Assembly (NCBI RefSeq): GCF_000011385.1
Contig: NC_005125.1
Coordinates: 744,001 to 808,000 of the forward strand
Direction of reading: 5' to 3'
Length of the DNA: 64,000 bases
Source of the DNA: Gloeobacter violaceus PCC 7421
GTDB lineage: Bacteria > Cyanobacteriota > Cyanobacteriia > Gloeobacterales > Gloeobacteraceae
A model generated the notes under the pieces. It was not told the DNA's origin. It saw only the letters and a program-made list of their open reading frames with translations, and ran no database searches. The translations under genes and the position numbers were made by a program. Positions 7,221 to 46,039 of this stretch are shown piece after piece. Positions within the stretch are counted from its first letter, which is position 1, and the number at the start of each line of letters is the position of its first letter.

Positions 7221-7988
7221 ATGGATATTATTCCTGCGATTGACATACTCGACGGCCGCTGCGTGCGCCTCTACCAGGGCAACTACCAGCTTGCTGAGAC
7301 CTACGGGGAGGACCCGGTGGCCGTTGCCTGCAACTGGGCGAAACTGGGGGCGCCGCGGCTGCACGTGGTCGACCTGGACGGTGCGCGCCAGGGGATGCCC
7401 GTGCACCTCGACGCCCTCGAAGCGATCGTCACCCAGGTGCCCTGCCCGGTACAGTTCGGGGGTGGCCTGCGCAGCATCGAGGCGGTCAGTGCCGTGCTCG
7501 ATCGCGGTGTGGACCGGGTGATCCTGGGCACCGCCGCGGTCGAAAATCCGGCGCTTATCCGCGAGTGCTGCGAGCGCTTCGGCGGCAGAATCGCCGTCGG
7601 CCTCGACGCGCGCGGCGGGCAGGTGGCGGTGCGCGGCTGGCGGGAAACCTCGGAAGTGGAGGTGACCGAACTGGCCGGCGAGATGGAAAAGCTCGGCGTC
7701 AGCGCCATCGTCTACACCGACATCCTCAAAGACGGTACCCTCACCGGTCCGAACCTGGTGGAGCTGCAGCGGCTCACCGACGCGGTCAAAGTGCCGATCA
7801 TCGCCTCCGGCGGCGTGGGCACCCTGGCGGATGTGCTCTACCTGCTGGCGCTGGAGCCGCGCGGATTGCAAGGAGTGATTATCGGCCGGGCCCTCTACAC
7901 GGGCGATGTCGATCTGGCCGAGGCGCTCAGGGCGGCCGGGCCGAGCCGCTGGCAGGATCTTCCCCCGGACGATGTGGCCTTCGCCTGA
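7221..7988 (+). CDS. hisA: Phosphoribosylformimino-5-aminoimidazole carboxamide ribotide isomerase
   Basis: Fourth step of histidine synthesis, an Amadori rearrangement on a TIM barrel. The 255-residue protein starts with IIPAIDILDGRCVRLYQG (general-base Asp) and retains VVDLDGARQG, VQFGGGLRSIEAV, VGLDARGGQVAVRGW, YTDILKDGTLTGPN (general-acid Asp) and IIASGGVGTLAD. Its stop overlaps an ATG of the next frame (ATGA-type junction at 7986-7990), so the downstream TonB-like gene may be co-transcribed. Confidence 0.96.
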   Translation: MDIIPAIDILDGRCVRLYQGNYQLAETYGEDPVAVACNWAKLGAPRLHVVDLDGARQGMPVHLDALEAIVTQVPCPVQFGGGLRSIEAVSAVLDRGVDRVILGTAAVENPALIRECCERFGGRIAVGLDARGGQVAVRGWRETSEVEVTELAGEMEKLGVSAIVYTDILKDGTLTGPNLVELQRLTDAVKVPIIASGGVGTLADVLYLLALEPRGLQGVIIGRALYTGDVDLAEALRAAGPSRWQDLPPDDVAFA

Positions 7989-8026: not shown

Positions 8027-8946
8027 ATGCTCTCTATGGTCCGGTTGCTCTTTTGTTCGATGCTTGCTTTGTCGCTTGCGGGTCCTTTGGCGCCGCCGCT
8101 CTTGGCCCAGGAGCCGAAGGCGGCTTCCAACCCCGAATTGAAGGCTTATCAAGTCAAAGTGCGCGACCGGGTGTTGGAGTACTGGCAGCCGCCCGATATC
8201 GACAGCGACACCCGTCTGCAAGTGCTCGTGCGGGTCGACCGCGACGGCAAGGTGAGCAAACGCGAGGTCAAGACCCTGGGAGATGCTCCTCCTTCCAAGG
8301 CGGCCGAAGAAGCGGTGCTCGACGCCATCGGCCGCGCCCAGCCGTTCCCGACGGTACCGCCGAACGTGGCGCCCTTCTATGTCGAGGTGCGCTTCAACCT
8401 CAAAGTGGCCGCCAAGACCCTGCCCACCCCCAGGTGCTACCCGGTGGCGACGTTCATCGATCTGCCCGCCGAGCAGCAACCCGCCGTCAAATCGGCCATC
8501 ACCAACCTCACCGGGTTACTGCGCGACAGTGTCGGCGAGAAAGAAATTTTTAGCATCGTAGACGATCGCGCCAAGGCGGACTTGCTGATCGAAGCGTCGA
8601 GCGATCCAACGATGGCGCGCAACGACAAGACCAGCTTCATCGGCAGCTACACCGTCAACGAAGCCCTCACCACCGGCACCGCGCGTCTCGGCCTAAAAAT
8701 AGAGCGGGCGCAGATCTCAGTTCTGAGCAACTCAGCCTCAATGCGATGCAGCTGTTGGGCCGCAGTCTGGGCCTACCCAGCGCGGGAGGCACTGCCGATT
8801 CGATCATGTCGGAGGCGCGGCTGGCGCCGCGGCTGACCCCGGAGCAACTGCGCATCGCCTCCGACACGGTCAAGGGAGCAGGTTGCACCCCCCAGACTGC
8901 CCAGCGCGGCTTCCAGATAAAAACCGCCGACGCGGGAACCAAGTAA
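8027..8946 (+). pseudogene. TonB-like / degenerate matrixin protein, frameshifted
   Basis: The first frame encodes a signal peptide (MVRLLFCSMLALSLA) and a TonB C-terminal-like domain (YQVKVRDRVLEYWQPPD, VLVRVDRDGKVSKREVK, FPTVPPNVAPFYVEVRFNL). It then becomes nonsense after A5 at 8695-8699 and runs to 8836. Reading on in the -1 frame (8700-8946) gives a sensible tail: DLSSEQLSLNAMQLLGRSLG and GLPSAGGTADSIMS, ending at 8946. One extra A would restore a single frame of about 306 residues. The tail lines up with a matrixin zinc-protease domain but has lost every active-site residue. Start is ATG 8027 or 8036; ATG 7988 is also in frame. A sequencing error is possible. Confidence 0.65.
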
Positions 8947-8952
8947 TACCCC

Positions 8953-9708
8953 ATGGACTCCGGGGCGCTCTGGCAGGATCTGGGCTGGCAGCCGGATACG
9001 CTCCAAGCCCGCAGCTTCGAGCGGCTCTACGCACTGGTGCTCGCGGGCAACACCCGGCTCAACCTCACCCGCATCACAGGGCGCGAGGAATTCTGGGAGA
9101 AGCACCTGTTCGACTCCCTGCGCGGGCTCGCCGCATTTCAAGATCAAAAAGAACCGAGCCTCATCGACATCGGCACCGGCGCCGGCTTTCCAGGGCTGCC
9201 TATCGCGATCGCCCACCCCGACTGGTACGTGGTGCTCGTCGATTCGGTGCGCAAAAAAATTGCCTTTGTGCTCTCAACCATCCAGGCTCTGGGACTCACC
9301 AACGCCCAGGCCCTCACCGGTCGGGCCGAGGATCTGGCCCATCGGCGCGAGCACCGCGAAAGTTACGATCTGGCGGTGCTCAGGGCCGTGGCCCAGGCCA
9401 ACGTTTGTGCGGAGTACGCTCTGCCGTTTGTCAAGCTGGGCGGTGCGGCGGTGCTTTACCGGGGCAACTGGGAGGTGCAGGAGGAGGTGGAACTGGCCCG
9501 GGCCTGCCGGGCGCTGGGCGGGGAGATTGTCGAAGTGGACGCCTTCGAGCTGCCGGTGAGCCGGGCGGTGCGCCACTGCGTCGTGATTCGCAAAACCGGC
9601 CCGGGGCTCAGGGTATTCCCGCGCCCGGCGGGCTTGCCCACACAACATCCCCTCGGAGCCATCGAAGGGGCCCCGAGGGTCGAATCGGAGGAGCCGGAGG
9701 AGCCTTAG
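8953..9708 (+). CDS. rsmG: 16S rRNA (guanine527-N7)-methyltransferase
   Basis: Methylates G527 in the 530 loop of 16S rRNA using SAM. The 251-residue protein has the RsmG N-terminal helical part (LYALVLAGNTRLNLTRI), the Rossmann motif LIDIGTGAGFPGLPIAIA, DSVRKKIAFVLSTI and AVLRAVAQANV. The C-terminal 20 residues are acidic and variable. It overlaps the end of the convergent lexA by 4 bases. Loss of rsmG gives low-level streptomycin resistance in other bacteria. Confidence 0.93.
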   Translation: MDSGALWQDLGWQPDTLQARSFERLYALVLAGNTRLNLTRITGREEFWEKHLFDSLRGLAAFQDQKEPSLIDIGTGAGFPGLPIAIAHPDWYVVLVDSVRKKIAFVLSTIQALGLTNAQALTGRAEDLAHRREHRESYDLAVLRAVAQANVCAEYALPFVKLGGAAVLYRGNWEVQEEVELARACRALGGEIVEVDAFELPVSRAVRHCVVIRKTGPGLRVFPRPAGLPTQHPLGAIEGAPRVESEEPEEP

Positions 9709-23573: not shown

Positions 23574-24730
23574 CCCAAGAAAACAGCCCTCTGCTGTTCG
23601 ACGATCCGACTGCCCTGTGTCTGGAAATTTCCGAAGCGGACCAGGAGCGGGCCTGGCGCGAGTGCGCCAATGTTACCCATCCGGTTTCCCACTGGCGGGC
23701 ATTTCGCAATCGCCTGGCCCTCGCGGTACTGCTGCCCTGGATCCGCGAGGATATCGATCCCCACGCGGCGGTCTGGCCCGCGCCCATGGCCCTGTCGGCC
23801 TTCTGGGATCTCGTCGGCGGTACGGCCTTGACAGCGAACGGCAAGCGTTGGGTGATCTGTCTCGACGAGGCCGACGGGACTGCTCCTGTGCACATCCCTC
23901 AGGAATGGCTCGACATCCCGGCCTGGGCGGCAGACTATTACCTGCTGGTCCATTTCGACCTCGCAGGCCAGTGGCTGCGGGTATCGGGTTGGACGACCCA
24001 CCGGCAAATCAAAACCCTGGGCCGCTTCGACCCGCGCGATCGCACCTATTACCTGGACGAAACGTTCATTCAGACTGGGCTCGGTGGCCTCTGGGCAATC
24101 ACTACCGGAGAACTCCTCCTTACAGAACCTACTCGCGCTTCTCAGTCCGAGTTGCCTGGACTGACTGTACCCCAAGCCCGCGCACTCATCGAACGGCTGG
24201 GTAACCCTGAAATTTCCGAACCTCGCCTGGAAGTCCCCTTTGAGCAGTGGGCCGCCCTGGTTTCCTACGACGGCTGGTGCCAGGAACTCTACGCCCGCCG
24301 CCAGGGCCTACCGCCTCAATGGTCGGTTCTAGAGTGGATTAAAAACGGCGTATCAGAATTGGCGCGCGAAGCTGGTTGGTCGGTCTCAAACCCCATTGGC
24401 GCCGAAGCTAGGAGTGCTGGATCTAATCTGGTGTTTTTCACTCGCGTCCTCTCGATCGCAGACAAGACCTGCGAACTATGTATTGAGCAGATTACCCCTG
24501 GCGTCTGGCGCTTCTGCCTGCGCACTACACTCTGGAACAGCCGCTTGCCGGCTGGCACGACGTTGCGGCTTTTGACTGAGAATCTGCAGAGCTTTGAAAA
24601 TAACGAAGTACATGCACATACCGCAGTTGAAGAACTAGCGATAGACTTGACACTCGAAGAAGGAGAAGGAATTGTCTGGGAAATTGAAACAGCTCCCAAA
24701 CATTTCCAACGGGAGATTCTACAGTTTTAG
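23570..24730 (+). CDS. DUF1822 family protein
   Basis: A 386-residue soluble protein with no signal peptide or membrane helix. It resembles the cyanobacterial DUF1822 family (LPWIREDIDPHAAVWPAPMA, VHIPQEWLDIPAWAADYYLL, RTYYLDETFIQT), often found directly behind a sigma factor and near caspase-like (CHAT or C14) genes. No enzyme motif is evident; a regulator or partner of the sigma factor is possible (inference). ATG 23570 overlaps the sigma stop and has AGGAGA upstream. G+C content falls toward its 3' end. Confidence 0.75.
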   Translation: MTQENSPLLFDDPTALCLEISEADQERAWRECANVTHPVSHWRAFRNRLALAVLLPWIREDIDPHAAVWPAPMALSAFWDLVGGTALTANGKRWVICLDEADGTAPVHIPQEWLDIPAWAADYYLLVHFDLAGQWLRVSGWTTHRQIKTLGRFDPRDRTYYLDETFIQTGLGGLWAITTGELLLTEPTRASQSELPGLTVPQARALIERLGNPEISEPRLEVPFEQWAALVSYDGWCQELYARRQGLPPQWSVLEWIKNGVSELAREAGWSVSNPIGAEARSAGSNLVFFTRVLSIADKTCELCIEQITPGVWRFCLRTTLWNSRLPAGTTLRLLTENLQSFENNEVHAHTAVEELAIDLTLEEGEGIVWEIETAPKHFQREILQF

Positions 24731-24889
24731 GGCTCTCTGCGCCGGCATCCCGGAAAGAAAGCGCCTTGCCATACTTAGCAAAATCACTGCCCTCTGGGTC
24801 AAAAAATCGACATTCTCTCCTGGGCTGCATAAAGTGCCTGCCAGCAGGTATTTAGTTACAGATCCTCCGGTCAACACCGTGCTGGATTG

Positions 24890-24905
24890 TAAACACTAGT
24901 GTTTA
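24890..24905. promoter_or_regulatory. 16-bp perfect palindrome before the orphan gene
   Basis: TAAACACTAGTGTTTA, with the Shine-Dalgarno AAAGGAGAG starting at its last base and ATG 24919 following. Its position allows an operator at the promoter or an mRNA stem that hides the ribosome binding site. The rest of 24731-24918 holds no gene. Confidence 0.5.
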
Positions 24906-24918
24906 AAGGAGAGTCGAA

Positions 24919-25839
24919 ATGACACGGTTTACCTTTAGTACTGCTGACAATTCCGTTGGCTCTTTACCCGAATGGAAAATCACAAAAATATATACTCCAA
25001 TTGGCAAGCAAGCTCCGGTCTTTAATGCGGAGGGCTTCAATGAAGACTTTGTTCCCAAGAATGACTGCACAGGTTCAAATGGAAATAGCAACTGCCACCC
25101 TGCTGAAATTCATCAATCAATTGAAATCGATAAAACGGTTTGTTTTACTCGTCAGGGCTTTATTAAGTTGACGAGATTTCCCGAACACCCATCTTTTATT
25201 ATTAAGGTTGGTCCGGGAGCAGTAGTGTGCTTTGGGCGCCCCACAGATTACCCGAATCCCACTTTAATCATTGCTAAAGAAATAAATACATCTGAGCGTT
25301 TGTGCTATCTTGTGGAGGAAGGAGGAAATTTCGACCTCTCAAAAATTGAAACTTATTGTTCGCGAGAAATTCCAATCGATGATCTACTTAATTTTGTTGA
25401 AGATATAGTTTCTAAAAGATTAGTTGTGCCAGAGATTGAGAGATTGCACGATAATTTAATATTGAAGGAACCTATCAATACTTTTTACTCAGCGTTGAAA
25501 GCTGTATTCCCTGCTGCCGCTAAGCGTCCGGACTGCTCGGACATACACGGCAATAAGGTTTACATCGAAGAGAGCTCCGCAATCGGTGTTACCGGAAGTT
25601 CCGACCCTCTTTCTCAAATACCCCCACCCTTTGAGTGTTGGTCACTCTTAGGATTCGCCTCCATTGTAACCTATTTTAAAAAGGAACCTATTCCCCGCGG
25701 CATTGCTGTGATCCCACAAGGATATGGTCAGACAGTTATGCCTAGAGACCGTCTTCGGTATGGATGTCTTTCCTCTGGCATAAGGAGAATCGATGAAGAT
25801 GTGAAAAAGAGGATTATGGAGTTTGAGCATCTGAATTAA
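24919..25839 (+). CDS. AT-rich orphan protein, unknown function
   Basis: A 306-residue protein that I do not recognise. No signal peptide, membrane helix or repeat is visible; it holds nine cysteines without a zinc-finger spacing. G+C is near 40% (24 of 60 bases in 24961-25020), far below the neighbours, suggesting recent acquisition. A strong ribosome site (AAAGGAGAG) and the palindrome at 24890-24905 precede it. Its 3' end overlaps the convergent caspase-WD40 gene by 26 bases. It lies downstream of sigma-DUF1822 on the same strand and could belong to that unit, or be an effector or target of the caspase (inference). Confidence 0.6.
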   Translation: MTRFTFSTADNSVGSLPEWKITKIYTPIGKQAPVFNAEGFNEDFVPKNDCTGSNGNSNCHPAEIHQSIEIDKTVCFTRQGFIKLTRFPEHPSFIIKVGPGAVVCFGRPTDYPNPTLIIAKEINTSERLCYLVEEGGNFDLSKIETYCSREIPIDDLLNFVEDIVSKRLVVPEIERLHDNLILKEPINTFYSALKAVFPAAAKRPDCSDIHGNKVYIEESSAIGVTGSSDPLSQIPPPFECWSLLGFASIVTYFKKEPIPRGIAVIPQGYGQTVMPRDRLRYGCLSSGIRRIDEDVKKRIMEFEHLN

Positions 25840-28800
25840 TGCGATGAATAGATACTGAGCAGAGATCTTGAATGAAGCTTTGAGCTGTAATATTGCTGCG
25901 AAGATAGCTTTGCAATTGCTTACAACTTTCATTCAGTAGCCAGTTCGCCTCAGTTCGCCAGGCTTGCCACAGAAAGACACTACCATCCGCAGCGCCGGAT
26001 AGAAGGATTTTGCTGTCCGGGCTGAAGCGAACGGCTCCGACACTATCTTTGTGTCCGTAAAGCACAGCCACAGATTCACCTACCGGACCCCAAAGTCGAA
26101 CGGTTCCATCAGCGCCGGCGGAAGCAACAGTTTTGCCATCTGCGCTGAAATCGATACTTGTGACACGGTTACTGTGGGCATTAATAGTCTTGAGAAGCTG
26201 TCCTGCGATTGTCCAGTAACGAAGTGTACCGTCGCGGCTGGCGCTCACCAATACCTGGTTGTCAGGACTGAAAGTAAGGTCGGTGATCAGATCAGGGTGC
26301 CCACGCAAAGTGCGGAGCAGTGTACCCGTCTGGCTCCAGATGCGAATTGTTCTATCCACTCCACCGGCCGTTGCCAGAAATAGTCCTCGCGGGCCGAACC
26401 GCACTACAGCTAACTCAGCGTGACCAGTAGAAATTTTTTTAAATAATTTACCTTTGTGGCCCCATAACCAAACCAAGCCGTCAGGTCCTCCAGCGGCAAT
26501 TAGGTTTCCATTGGGGCTAAAGCTCAGGCTAGTAACAGCTGCCCCTTGCTTGTCGAATTGGCTTAAATAGGATCCGTGCCGAGTCCATAAACGTACAGCA
26601 CGATCATTGCCTCCTGAGGCGATGATCGTGCCGTCAGGGCTGTAGGCCAGTGCAAAGATAGTTGCAGGAGGAATGACTCTATTCTCAAGTCTGCCCTGGC
26701 GATCCCATAGATCCAGAGTGCCGTCTCCCCCCGCCGTTGCAAACGCCTGACTATCAGGGCTGAAACCTACACAGCTCACCCATTGCCCATGGCCCCGGAA
26801 AGCGGTAAGGGGTGGACCATACAGTCTCCAAAGCAGCAGTGTCTTGTCGTCACTGGCGGAGGCTAGGATTCTACCATCCGCGCTAAAGTCCAAGCTGTTG
26901 ACCCGGCCTGTATGTCCGTGCAGACTGGAGAGCAAAACTCCCTCCCGACTCCAGAGACGAACGGTCTTGTCGACACTACCGGAAGCGAGGATGGATCCAT
27001 CGGGACTAAAGCGAACACTTAGAAAAGGAGTGGTGTTGTCCGAAAGAGTGTGCAGTAGCTGCCCATGAACATTCCATAAGCGCAAGGTTTTATCCTGGCC
27101 TGCGGAAGCAAGGCGTTGGCCATCTGGGCTGAAAGCGACGCTCCAAATACCGTCTTTATGCTCTTTCAGGATACTTATCAGGTTACCTTGAATGCCCCAC
27201 ATGCGGACCGTTCCGTCCCAACTTGCGGATGCCAATGTTTGGCCGTCCGGGCTAAAATCGACACTCATCACTTCATCCTGATGTCCCATAAGTGTTCTGA
27301 GAATCTTCCCGTTACGATTCCATAGACGAACGGTTTTATCTTGAGAAGCCGAAGCGAGCAGTTTACTGTCGGGACTGAAGCGTAGACTCCAAATAGTTGC
27401 ATTGTGTCCTCGAATGACTGTGCGTAACTCGCCTTTAGATGTCCATAAATAAATGCTTCCCCGATCATCTGCTGAAGCCATAAACTCTCCATCTGGGCTG
27501 AAGCAAATGCTTGTGATGTTGTTCGCATGGCCCTTCAAAATTTTGATTGGCATTCCGTCAAGCTGCCACAATCGGATAGTTCTATCCCAACTTGCAGATG
27601 CCATCAGCTTTCTGCTGGAGCTGAAGCTGACCTGACTGATAAAGTCACTATGCCCTTCCAAACGATTTATTTGACGGTTGCTATACACGGATTGCTGCAG
27701 GGCAATACGAGTTTTCTCTCGAAGCTGCAGAGAACTAGTCCAAGTTTGCTGCACCAAGCTTTGCGCTCTCATGAGCTCAACGAGTGCCTCCAGGTGCTGG
27801 TGATTTGCAAACCGCAACTGAGCAGAGTTTATTAATGCATCAATTTCGCGCTCTTGTGACTTCAACGATTGCCAGTAGGCTGTGATCCCGAAACCCATGG
27901 CGACGACGGCAAGCAGGGCCAAAACACCTGCAAGGCGACGCAGTTGGTGGGTGCGCTTGCGCTCGAGTTGCAGTTGTTGAGCTCGAAGTTGCAGACTAAT
28001 TTCAATAAAGGCCGTTTCCTTTGGGGAGAGCATGTCCTCATCGCGCAAAAATAGTTGCTCAGCTTCAGTTAGATCACTGCCGCGCAGCAAGTAATCGGTT
28101 TCACGATTTTTACTCTGCCAGTGGTCTGCGGCTTGTTCAATCTGTCGCTGGGTGCGCAGGCGGGAACGGTTGTCGGCCAGCCACTCGCGCAGCCTTCCCC
28201 AACTGCGGATGAGCACTTCATGAGCCACTTCTACCGTCGCTGTCGAGGAACCGGACTCCTCTTCTTCGGCCGCATCGACCACCAACAATTTGGCTTTGAG
28301 AAAGGCGTTCAACACCCTCTCCACCAGTTTGGAAGAATAGCGGCGGCTGATTAGACGATTGCGGGGCAGGTGGCGGCGGCTGTCCTCGGTGCCCTCCCCC
28401 AATTGCACGAGATTCAACATTAACCAGCGGGCGCACTCGCGTGCATCCAGTTCTTTGAGCGATTCGTAAACTTCATCGGCTTTGCGTTCAAGTGCTCCTC
28501 TTAGCCCGCCGATATCCCCCTCGTAAGCCCGGCGGGTGAGTAACGGCCCGGAGCGCTGTTTCCACAACTGCTCTAATACAAACTCCAACAGGGGCAGCTC
28601 CCCTGCGGAGTGGTTCAGTTCGTCGAGTAGTATCTCCACTAGTTCCGCTTCCACCTGTAAACCAACTTTGGATGCGGGCTCCAGGATGACGGCGCGATAG
28701 TCCTCGCGGCTGAGGCGTGGAGGGACCAGCACGCTCGAACGCTGTAGGGCGGCGGCCAGGATTGGATACTCCAGGCAGGGGGTAATGCTGTCGGCCCGAA

Positions 28801-43027: not shown

Positions 43028-44200
43028 TCAAGGCTTGAGCACAACCTTGATACAGTCGTCTTTTTGATCGCGGAAGGTCCGGTAGCCTTCCGGTGCGTCG
43101 TCGAGTTTGAGGCGGTGGGTGATCACGAAAGTCGGATCGAGTTCGCCCTGCACGATGCGTTCCAACAGTGGTTGCAAGTAGCGGTGGACATGGGTCTGGC
43201 CCATCTTGAAGGTAAGCCCCTTGGCAAACGCCGCCCCCATGGGCATCTTGTCGAGTAGGCCGCCGTAGACGCCGGGGATCGAGACTGTGCCGCCTTTGCG
43301 GCAGGCGACGATTGCCTGGCGCAGGGCGGCGGGCTTGTCGGTCTCCAGCTTCAAGGCGTTCATGACGTTGTCGTAAATCCCTTCGATGCCGCTGCCGTGG
43401 GCTTCCAGACCCACCGCGTCGATGCAGTGGCTCGGCCCCCAACCGCCGGTCATTTCTTTAAGGGCCTCACCCACCTCTACCTCGTCGAGGTTGAGCACCT
43501 CGGCACCCCCCTGCTCCTTGGCCATTTTGAGGCGCTTGGGATGGCGGTCGATACCGATCACCCGGTCCGCCCCGAGCATGTAGGCACTTTTAATCGCAAA
43601 CTGCCCAACCGGCCCGCAACCCCAGACCGCCACCGTGTCCCCCGGCTGGATGTTGCAGTTCTCCGCCGCCATATAACCGGTCGGAAAGATGTCGGTCAAG
43701 AACAACACTTGCTCGTCCGTCAGGCTTTCGGGTACCTTCATCGGTCCGGTATCCGCGAAGGGAACCCGCACGTACTCCGCCTGTCCGCCCGCGTAGCCTC
43801 CGAACAGGTGCGAATACCCAAAAAGCCCGGAACCGGAGGTAGATCCGTAGACTTTCTCGGCCATCCAGGCATTGGGGTTGGAGTTGTCGCACAGCGACCA
43901 CAGCGTCCGCTCGCAGAAGTGGCAGTGGCCGCAGGCGATGGTGAAGGGCACCACCACGCGATCGCCCTTGCGCAGGTTCTTGACGGCCGCCCCGACTTCG
44001 ACCACTTCGCCCATGAATTCGTGGCCAAGAATGTCGCCTTTTTGCATCGTCGGGATCACCCCGTCATAGAGGTGCAAATCCGAGCCGCAGATGGCCGTGG
44101 AGGTTACTTTGATAATGGCGTCGCGAGGATAAAGAATGGCCGGATCCGGGACGGTCTCAACCCGCACATCGCCCGCACCGTGCCAGCAAACCGCTTTCAT
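43028..44200 (-). CDS. Zinc-dependent alcohol dehydrogenase, formaldehyde-dehydrogenase-like
   Basis: The 390-residue MDR-family enzyme starts at ATG 44200 behind AGGAG. Catalytic zinc ligands are Cys in [13 protein letters not shown] and His/Glu in GHEFMGEV; structural zinc cysteines are in [15 protein letters not shown]. The NAD-binding loop reads [17 protein letters not shown], followed by the acidic [10 protein letters not shown], which favours NAD over NADP. The closest type is glutathione-independent formaldehyde dehydrogenase, but substrate is not certain. It follows the SRPBCC gene by 19 bases and is probably co-transcribed. Confidence 0.9.
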
Positions 44201-44219
44201 AATCGCTCCTATGGGTGGA

Positions 44220-44972
44220 TTAGCGCTGACCGGTGGGTTGGCCGTCGGTGGAAATAAGCTCGCCCGCTTCCATAAGTTGTTTGAAGCGGCGCAGATCGTC
44301 GTAAAGCTGCTGCGAAGTTTCCTCACCGGCGAACCAGGCTAGGACCGTTCCCAATTTTCCGGCAGGTGGATCGTAGGTGATCGTCACCTGCACCTGCGTG
44401 CCACCGTCCGGAGCCGGGCTGAACCGCACCAAACCGGCGTTTGCAACATCCGATCCTTCGAGCGAGCGCCAGGCTATCCGCTCGTTTTCTTTTTCTTCGA
44501 CAATCTCTGCCAACCACTCAGCAGTGCCACCGCCCGGAGACTTTACAGCCCACCGCGAACGCCGCTCATCGACGATCTGCACCGACTGCAAATGGCCCAT
44601 AAAGCGAGGCAGATTCTCAAAGTCGCGCCAAAAGCGGTAAAGATCCTCCGGCGAGCGGTTGACAGTCACGGCCTTTGCGATTTGGACGTTGCGCTCGTCC
44701 GGCAGGTTGCGCCCGTCGCCCCGCCCGGAGTGCGCGGTGTCGATATCGAGCGCTTTGTAGACGATGGATTTGCCCGTGACGCCCCGCAAAACCAGGCCTC
44801 CCCCCAGCAGCGCCAGGGCAAAGCCGCCCAGATTGTTGCGCGATAGACCGTAGAAGGCCACCAAACTGCCGCTGATCATCGAAATCAGCCTTTCTGTGCT
44901 GCCTACGTTCATCTCTTCGGTGCCGGGACCGCTCAAACCTGCCCGAGACCCCACTGAATCGCTTGTTGCCAT
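44220..44972 (-). CDS. SRPBCC (cyclase/dehydrase-like) protein with membrane anchor
   Basis: The 250-residue protein has an N-terminal DUF2892-like hydrophobic part (about 20-65: [34 protein letters not shown]) and a START-like SRPBCC domain (about 95-235: [47 protein letters not shown]). Such domains bind hydrophobic ligands in a helix-grip pocket. ATG 44972 is chosen over the longer frame to 45002. Likely first gene of a two-gene unit with the dehydrogenase. Confidence 0.85.
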
Positions 44973-45532
44973 CGGCTTGTCTCCATCGATTTGCGTACAC
45001 ACCGCTCGCTGACGCCTATGATCAATCCTGGTCTGCCTGTAGGTGTCGATTCACATTGAACGCGAACGATCCCGAAATAGCTCACTGTCCAACGGTAGAT
45101 CCTGTTTGTGAAGGCTCCCATAGTTCGCAAGGTGTAACTTCGGGCGTTTAGCGCTATACCCGAAGATTGAACGCTGCCAAAGGAAATAAGTAATGTAAGT
45201 AATGTCGGAATAAATCATCAAATCTTGTGTGGCTTTTCCACCACACAATCGGGAATTTGCCAACGGGCTCTGCAACAACGTGAAGTAGCAACTGGATTTA
45301 ATTTTGCAGAGCGATCTACCAAAAGATAGATTTCAAAGTTTCTCAGCCCCTGCTAGGGTCAAGTCGCATTAATGGGTTCCTGCTTTTAGAACAATTGTTG
45401 GCAAATACAAACAATGTCAATATAAAGCTTTCATTTCAATAGATTGGCTCAATGGATGGAGTAAAGCTTTGAGTCTCGTTTTGTTGAAACAACTGTTCCA
45501 AGCACTCTGCGCACTTATCGTCGGAGAATCCT
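44973..45532. other. Divergent AT-richer intergenic region
   Basis: 560 bases between the SRPBCC gene and the DUF2231-cox operon. Contents: a tandem pair of AAGTAATGT (45188-45205); an 8-bp stem TTGTGTGG/CCACACAA (45225-45248, loop CTTTTCCA); and the promoter listed at 45398-45426. No ORF is convincing. Confidence 0.55.
45390..45426 (+). promoter_or_regulatory. Candidate promoter/operator of the DUF2231-cox operon
   Basis: TTGGCA (45398-45403) and TATAAA (45421-45426) are 17 bases apart. The perfect palindrome AACAATTGTT (45390-45399) overlaps the -35. The first gene starts 107 bases after the -10. Confidence 0.6.
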
Positions 45533-46039
45533 GTGTTTGACATCAAGCTCAACGAATACGGTCTACCCTACCCAGAGATCATCGGAAGCGCAATACATCC
45601 TATCATTGTGCACTTTGTGATAGCCACGGTAATCGCTTCGGTGCTGTTTGACTTTATCGGTTATTTTGGTCGCAAACCCAGCTTTCACAACGTTGGGTGG
45701 TACAACCTGGTAGTCGCCTGTGCCGCCGTCATCGGCGCCATTATTTTCGGTCAGATTGAAGCCGGACTCGCGCACCAATCCAATGCAATGCAACCGGTGC
45801 TAGCCTGGCACACAATTATCGGATGGTCCCTGGGAGCCTTGATCTTGATCATGGCTGCCTGGAGGGGTGTGGCGCGTTATCGTGATCCCAATCGGCTCAA
45901 CCCTGCTTACCTCGGTCTCTCGCTGCTGGTGGTCGGCACCGTGTTCTATCAAGTTTTCCTTGGGACACAACTGGTGTGGACTTACGGTATCCACGTCAAA
46001 CCGGTGGTCGAAGCCACGACGGCCCGCACCCAGCCGTAA
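45533..46039 (+). CDS. DUF2231 membrane protein, first gene of cox operon
   Basis: The 168-residue protein has four membrane helices (around 24-44, 57-76, 91-110 and 125-146). The conserved family feature IHPIIVHFVIATVIASVLFD has the paired His that suggest a heme or metal ligand; a third His is at AWHTIIGWS. It initiates at GTG 45533. It is the first of four genes that run through coxA; similar pairs of DUF2231 genes ahead of coxB occur in other cyanobacteria as far as I recall. Function is unproven. Confidence 0.8.
   Translation: MFDIKLNEYGLPYPEIIGSAIHPIIVHFVIATVIASVLFDFIGYFGRKPSFHNVGWYNLVVACAAVIGAIIFGQIEAGLAHQSNAMQPVLAWHTIIGWSLGALILIMAAWRGVARYRDPNRLNPAYLGLSLLVVGTVFYQVFLGTQLVWTYGIHVKPVVEATTARTQP

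Follow-up and report, generated by a model that had tools for sequence, protein, structure and literature searches.

A Gloeobacteraceae family joining a TonB_2 domain to a matrixin-like domain without a zinc site, with a private frame break in one Gloeobacter violaceus copy

What did the gene between hisA and rsmG of Gloeobacter violaceus PCC 7421 encode, and does its broken reading frame belong to the gene or to its record? The gene lies in a stretch of 64,000 nucleotides, hereafter the window (bases 744001-808000 of a genome of one contig, 4,659,019 bp), and its features are collected in Table 1. A first-pass annotation had described it as a TonB-like protein fused to a dead matrixin domain, in which catalysis was lost first and the frame broke later at a run of five A, unless the break was a sequencing or slippage event. 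The order hisA, gene, rsmG is also found in four relatives (G003, G001, G002 and G004); a fifth (G005) has hisA and the gene, and rsmG was not found on its piece, where the contig ends. Protein searches brought up Gloeobacterales MAGs and Aphanocapsa lilacina among the relatives. From the alignment of the orthologues, translation more likely starts at the second ATG (8036). Elsewhere in the window, the G+C content falls to 0.48-0.54 at 24001-28000 and 44001-46000, against about 0.62 nearby, and collinearity with the G003 stretch matching the first part of the window is lost from 34.7 kb on, so that this region may hold rearranged or acquired segments.

Table 1. Features of the locus and its neighbours, in window positions.
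Feature	Position	Strand	Remarks
hisA, conserved upstream neighbour	7221..7988	+	
ORF as it stands	8027-8836	+	269 aa; signal peptide, TonB_2 domain, first half of matrixin-like domain, 47 out-of-frame residues, stop
TonB_2 (TonB/TolA C-terminal) domain	8141..8395	+	residues 39-123
Matrixin-like fold, first half (strands and helix A)	8423..8694	+	in frame
Displaced frame	8692-8946	+	translation includes QLLGRSLGLPSAGGTADSIM
Frame break	8693..8699	+	one base (C) fewer before the five-A run than in the two nearest relatives
Matrixin-like domain, second half	8695..8946	+	displaced frame; ends 6 bases 5' of the rsmG start
Former zinc site QLLGRSLGLPS, for HExxHxxGxxH	8749..8781	+	displaced frame
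DSIM, Met-turn counterpart	8797..8808	+	
rsmG (gidB), conserved downstream neighbour	8953..9708	+	

The relatives carry the protein in one piece. Residues 1-222 of the ORF have an orthologous match in each of the five, and the tail in the displaced frame matches the five orthologues with E-values of 2.3e-47, 8.5e-47, 4.6e-25, 5.3e-19 and 1.1e-14. Both halves form a single open frame in all five cases, none of which ends at the position of the break. This bears out the earlier suggestion that the frame breaks near 8695 and that the other frame restores the tail.

The first domain was identified by its match to PF13103 (E 6.6e-15). We modelled the intact G003 orthologue with AlphaFold2 (mean pLDDT 75.7, weak at residues 1-33 and 253-267), and TolA domain III aligned structurally with residues 34-128 of the model (Z 10.2). 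The domain hence shares both sequence and predicted fold with the C-terminal domains of TonB and TolA. It is not C-terminal in this protein, where the matrixin-like domain comes after it. Unlike a working TonB, the protein lacks a Pro-rich spacer, and no lasting membrane anchor is evident: by inspection, the TonB_2 domain begins about 10 residues past a hydrophobic N-terminus, whose sequence gives the protein the look of an exported one. Because spacer and anchor are missing, docking onto a TonB-dependent receptor can only be a guess. The TonB genes listed for G. violaceus are glr1389, glr1815 and glr2404 (PMC2771747). For the paralogue L002 the Pfam search for TonB_2 gave no match, and its N-terminal domain was assigned from the alignment alone.

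The ancestry of the second domain is less apparent to standard searches. Pfam returned no match for it, the matrixin model (PF00413) included; Pfam and NCBIfam returned none for the tail; and a search of PDB sequences with the family profile gave just a chance-level match to MMP-12 (E 2.3), though correctly placed. The silence of Pfam and the missing zinc site would fit a chance likeness of an unrelated fold to matrixins. More sensitive comparisons contradict this. We built a family profile from orthologues and paralogues only, none with HExxH, and searched 291 cyanobacterial genomes with it: all matches with E < 0.01 outside Gloeobacteraceae were proteins with an intact HExxH, and so were two weak matches within Gloeobacteraceae (L074 and L075). 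Alignment of the family with ten active matrixins by hhalign gave a probability of 99.0 and a score of 115.6, against 15.2 for the reversed profile and no more than 16.7 in any of 100 column shuffles, which upholds the similarity that had been proposed for the restored protein.

The structural model agrees with the profiles. Its strands and helices follow one another as in metzincins, and the PDB structures that Foldseek ranked highest against it (E from 2.7e-5, probability 1.00) were MMPs and karilysin. Karilysin aligned with residues 130-284 of the model (Z 11.4), and this alignment sets the QLLGRSLGL segment on HELGHALGL. The second domain is thus predicted to have the metzincin/matrixin fold. 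It shares with the M10 family (MMPs, karilysin; PF00413) a predicted five-stranded sheet with helices A, B and C, the GxxxGL pattern of helix B, the position of the Met-turn and the AD[LIV].[IV] strand, but it has neither the zinc histidines nor the catalytic Glu at the site and goes unrecognised by the Pfam model. The profile matches, the hhalign scores with their shuffles and the tree described below establish common descent with active matrixins, and with these results and the predicted fold in agreement we consider a chance likeness barely credible. We hold the domain make-up and ancestry of the family with high confidence; profile, fold and tree all confirm the fusion of a TonB-like protein with a dead matrixin domain.

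The loss of the zinc site extends to the whole family. The window copy has the predicted replacements in the segment aligned with HELGHALGLPH (H to Q, E to L, H to R and H to S), and the HExxHxxGxxH/D site is absent from all 16 members compared. Among these, the first zinc His is replaced by Gln or Phe, the second by Arg (once by Lys), and the catalytic Glu by Leu, Gln or His, with a Glu retained in L083 alone. The G and L of helix B are largely retained, the second Gly being Asn or Ser in a few paralogues. The equation of DSIM with the Met-turn holds for its position; the Met itself is invariant in the five orthologues and replaced by Leu in most paralogues. In L006, Cys 137 and Cys 287 flank the dead domain; both are invariant in the five orthologues, the aligned paralogues have one at each end, and a disulphide between them is possible. 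Elsewhere the window genome encodes a matrixin in which HELGHALGLPH is intact and apparent ankyrin repeats come after it (L034, G000:C1:3079131-3079298, + strand).

Relatives that keep the zinc site place this loss in the tree. The dead members group together (support 89/86), with one origin as drawn, and they adjoin zinc-site matrixins that are themselves fused to TonB_2 (L074, L051 and L054; support 97/97 for the joint group), which supplies the relatives with intact HExxH that had been anticipated. L074 comes from G002, a member of the same genus; L051 and L054 belong to a neighbouring family. PF13103 and PF00413 both match L074 above the cut-off, whereas L054 has three TonB_2 stretches and a matrixin match just under the cut-off. 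These Gloeobacterales proteins are the nearest to the dead domain in the tree, yet they differ from the dead family in layout: the matrixin comes first, followed by one to three or more copies of TonB_2, whereas in the dead family TonB_2 comes first. Since the domain order differs, rearrangement must also have occurred. We searched for an active member nested within the dead clade and found none.

At least one member of the dead family occurs in each of the six Gloeobacteraceae genomes, with about four to six per complete Gloeobacter genome, and no dead member of the clade was found outside Gloeobacteraceae in the class or phylum samples. A search of the open literature, with subscription papers outside its scope, found nothing on the family. 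Given TonB-joined matrixins with a zinc site in the same order of bacteria and a dead site throughout the family, the loss of catalysis is old and shared, and the frame break alone is private. The proposed sequence of events, catalysis first and frame later, therefore stands: all compared orthologues and paralogues are dead, and one genome only has the break. Other damaged sites were seen in L088 and L089 (same phylum, another class) and in L094, namely REIGHSLGLRGH, with the first His lost, and QAVGRALGVGY, with all zinc-site residues lost and again an Arg at the second His; judged from these motifs, the zinc site may have been lost several times in the phylum. A 127-aa frame of the window genome (L004, G000:C1:1281655-1281852, - strand) starts like a paralogue, with a signal peptide and the start of a TonB_2 domain, and ends like the terminus of an S41/CtpA-type protease, perhaps through a deletion fusion.

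The break itself can be placed to the base. At this place the window has CTAAAAAT and the two nearest relatives (94% and 92% identity over the first part) have CTCAAAAAT; the A-run is five long in each of the three sequences, and the relatives' additional C sits directly before it. The change of frame at this place is thus as first described, but its location within the A-run is not. The aligned DNA points to the loss of a single base, private to the G. violaceus lineage, or to a sequence error. Loss of an A from a run of six is less parsimonious and less likely than loss of the C, because it needs an additional silent change beforehand.

Slippage at the A-run, ribosomal (programmed) or transcriptional, would yield a full-length protein from the gene as recorded, and both the presence of the run at the break and the continued constraint on the tail would suit it. 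Relatives with the same five A, however, read through in one frame and need no frameshift, and the five orthologues keep no such site. The window copy offers no usable -1 slippery heptamer, a -1 slip would leave the two codons poorly paired, and the predicted RNA fold of the 101 bases from 8690 is nothing unusual (z 0.38). Five A is also a short run for polymerase slippage. The relatives' DNA and the absence of RNA structure in effect rule slippage out, and we give it very little credence.

There remain a single-base loss in the living strain and a base missing from the record, and the tail bears on both. The dN/dS ratio between the window genome and G003 is 0.135 before the break and 0.059 after it (range given for the latter, 0.06-0.07), and no part of the gene shows signs of relaxed selection. 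Ten of the 12 tail changes private to the window genome are silent, two alter an amino acid, and the tail has no further lesion. A long-broken gene would show more amino-acid changes and more lesions; since the tail has evolved on like coding sequence, the break is either of very recent date or not real. If the gene is intact in the living strain and the old genome sequence is in error, private changes like those of a working gene are accounted for directly; this reading has a precedent in another older bacterial genome, where resequencing showed 75 of 82 suspect loci to be errors, mostly frameshifts (PMC2330054). Against it, 72 kb of DNA aligned with G003 contain only this gene broken here and open there, with three flagged in reverse; this count, limited to 72 kb by synteny, is a small sample; it does not suggest a record rich in errors throughout and is not decisive between error and mutation. 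One break in the reverse direction is a 750-aa frame at about G000:C1 292496, open in the window genome and interrupted by a single-base gap in G003.

A real and very recent break would take the simplest path, the loss of one base, and the new pseudogene might be tolerated since paralogues remain: the genome has three further members of the family, all intact. The lack of any relaxed selection speaks against it. We put error and mutation on about equal terms, each a little short of an even chance. If the break is real, the truncated product would lack helix B, the Met-turn and helix C and would probably be unfolded. Either way, with the window copy lost very recently or a base missing from the record only, the break has little import beyond a warning on this gene's record.

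What remains to be explained is a protein on which purifying selection acts, its two folds recognisable and its zinc site gone. We consider it probable that it belongs to a family confined, among the genomes searched, to Gloeobacteraceae, of exported proteins that combine a TonB/TolA-C-like domain with a dead matrixin and serve as non-catalytic binding or scaffold proteins in the periplasm. The mechanism can be drawn more tentatively: the protein would bind instead of cutting, the dead cleft might still hold a peptide or protein, with a candidate ligand site at the conserved Arg, and the TolA/TonB-like domain would dock onto a partner in the envelope. That dead metallopeptidases are recruited for binding or as scaffolds is known from other cases (PMC11266112). 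Pseudopeptidases such as the inactive ADAMs and FtsHi likewise retain their fold after loss of the zinc site, but they belong to other metallopeptidase families and are described mainly from eukaryotes, whereas the family described here is bacterial and M10-like.

Dead members of metallopeptidase families being mostly known from eukaryotes, the Gloeobacteraceae offer a case in early-branching cyanobacteria. A possible reading, on which we would not insist, is that of an expanded set of periplasmic dead matrixins, derived once from active ones fused to TonB and acting in the envelope as a module for binding or regulation. If true, the Arg conserved in place of the second zinc His would suggest that the old cleft took on a new role in ligand binding. 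The family presents an ordered series, from active TonB_2 matrixins to a zinc-less sister clade, its expansion to about four to six copies and then strong constraint, and the role of a zinc-free matrixin fold therefore becomes testable.
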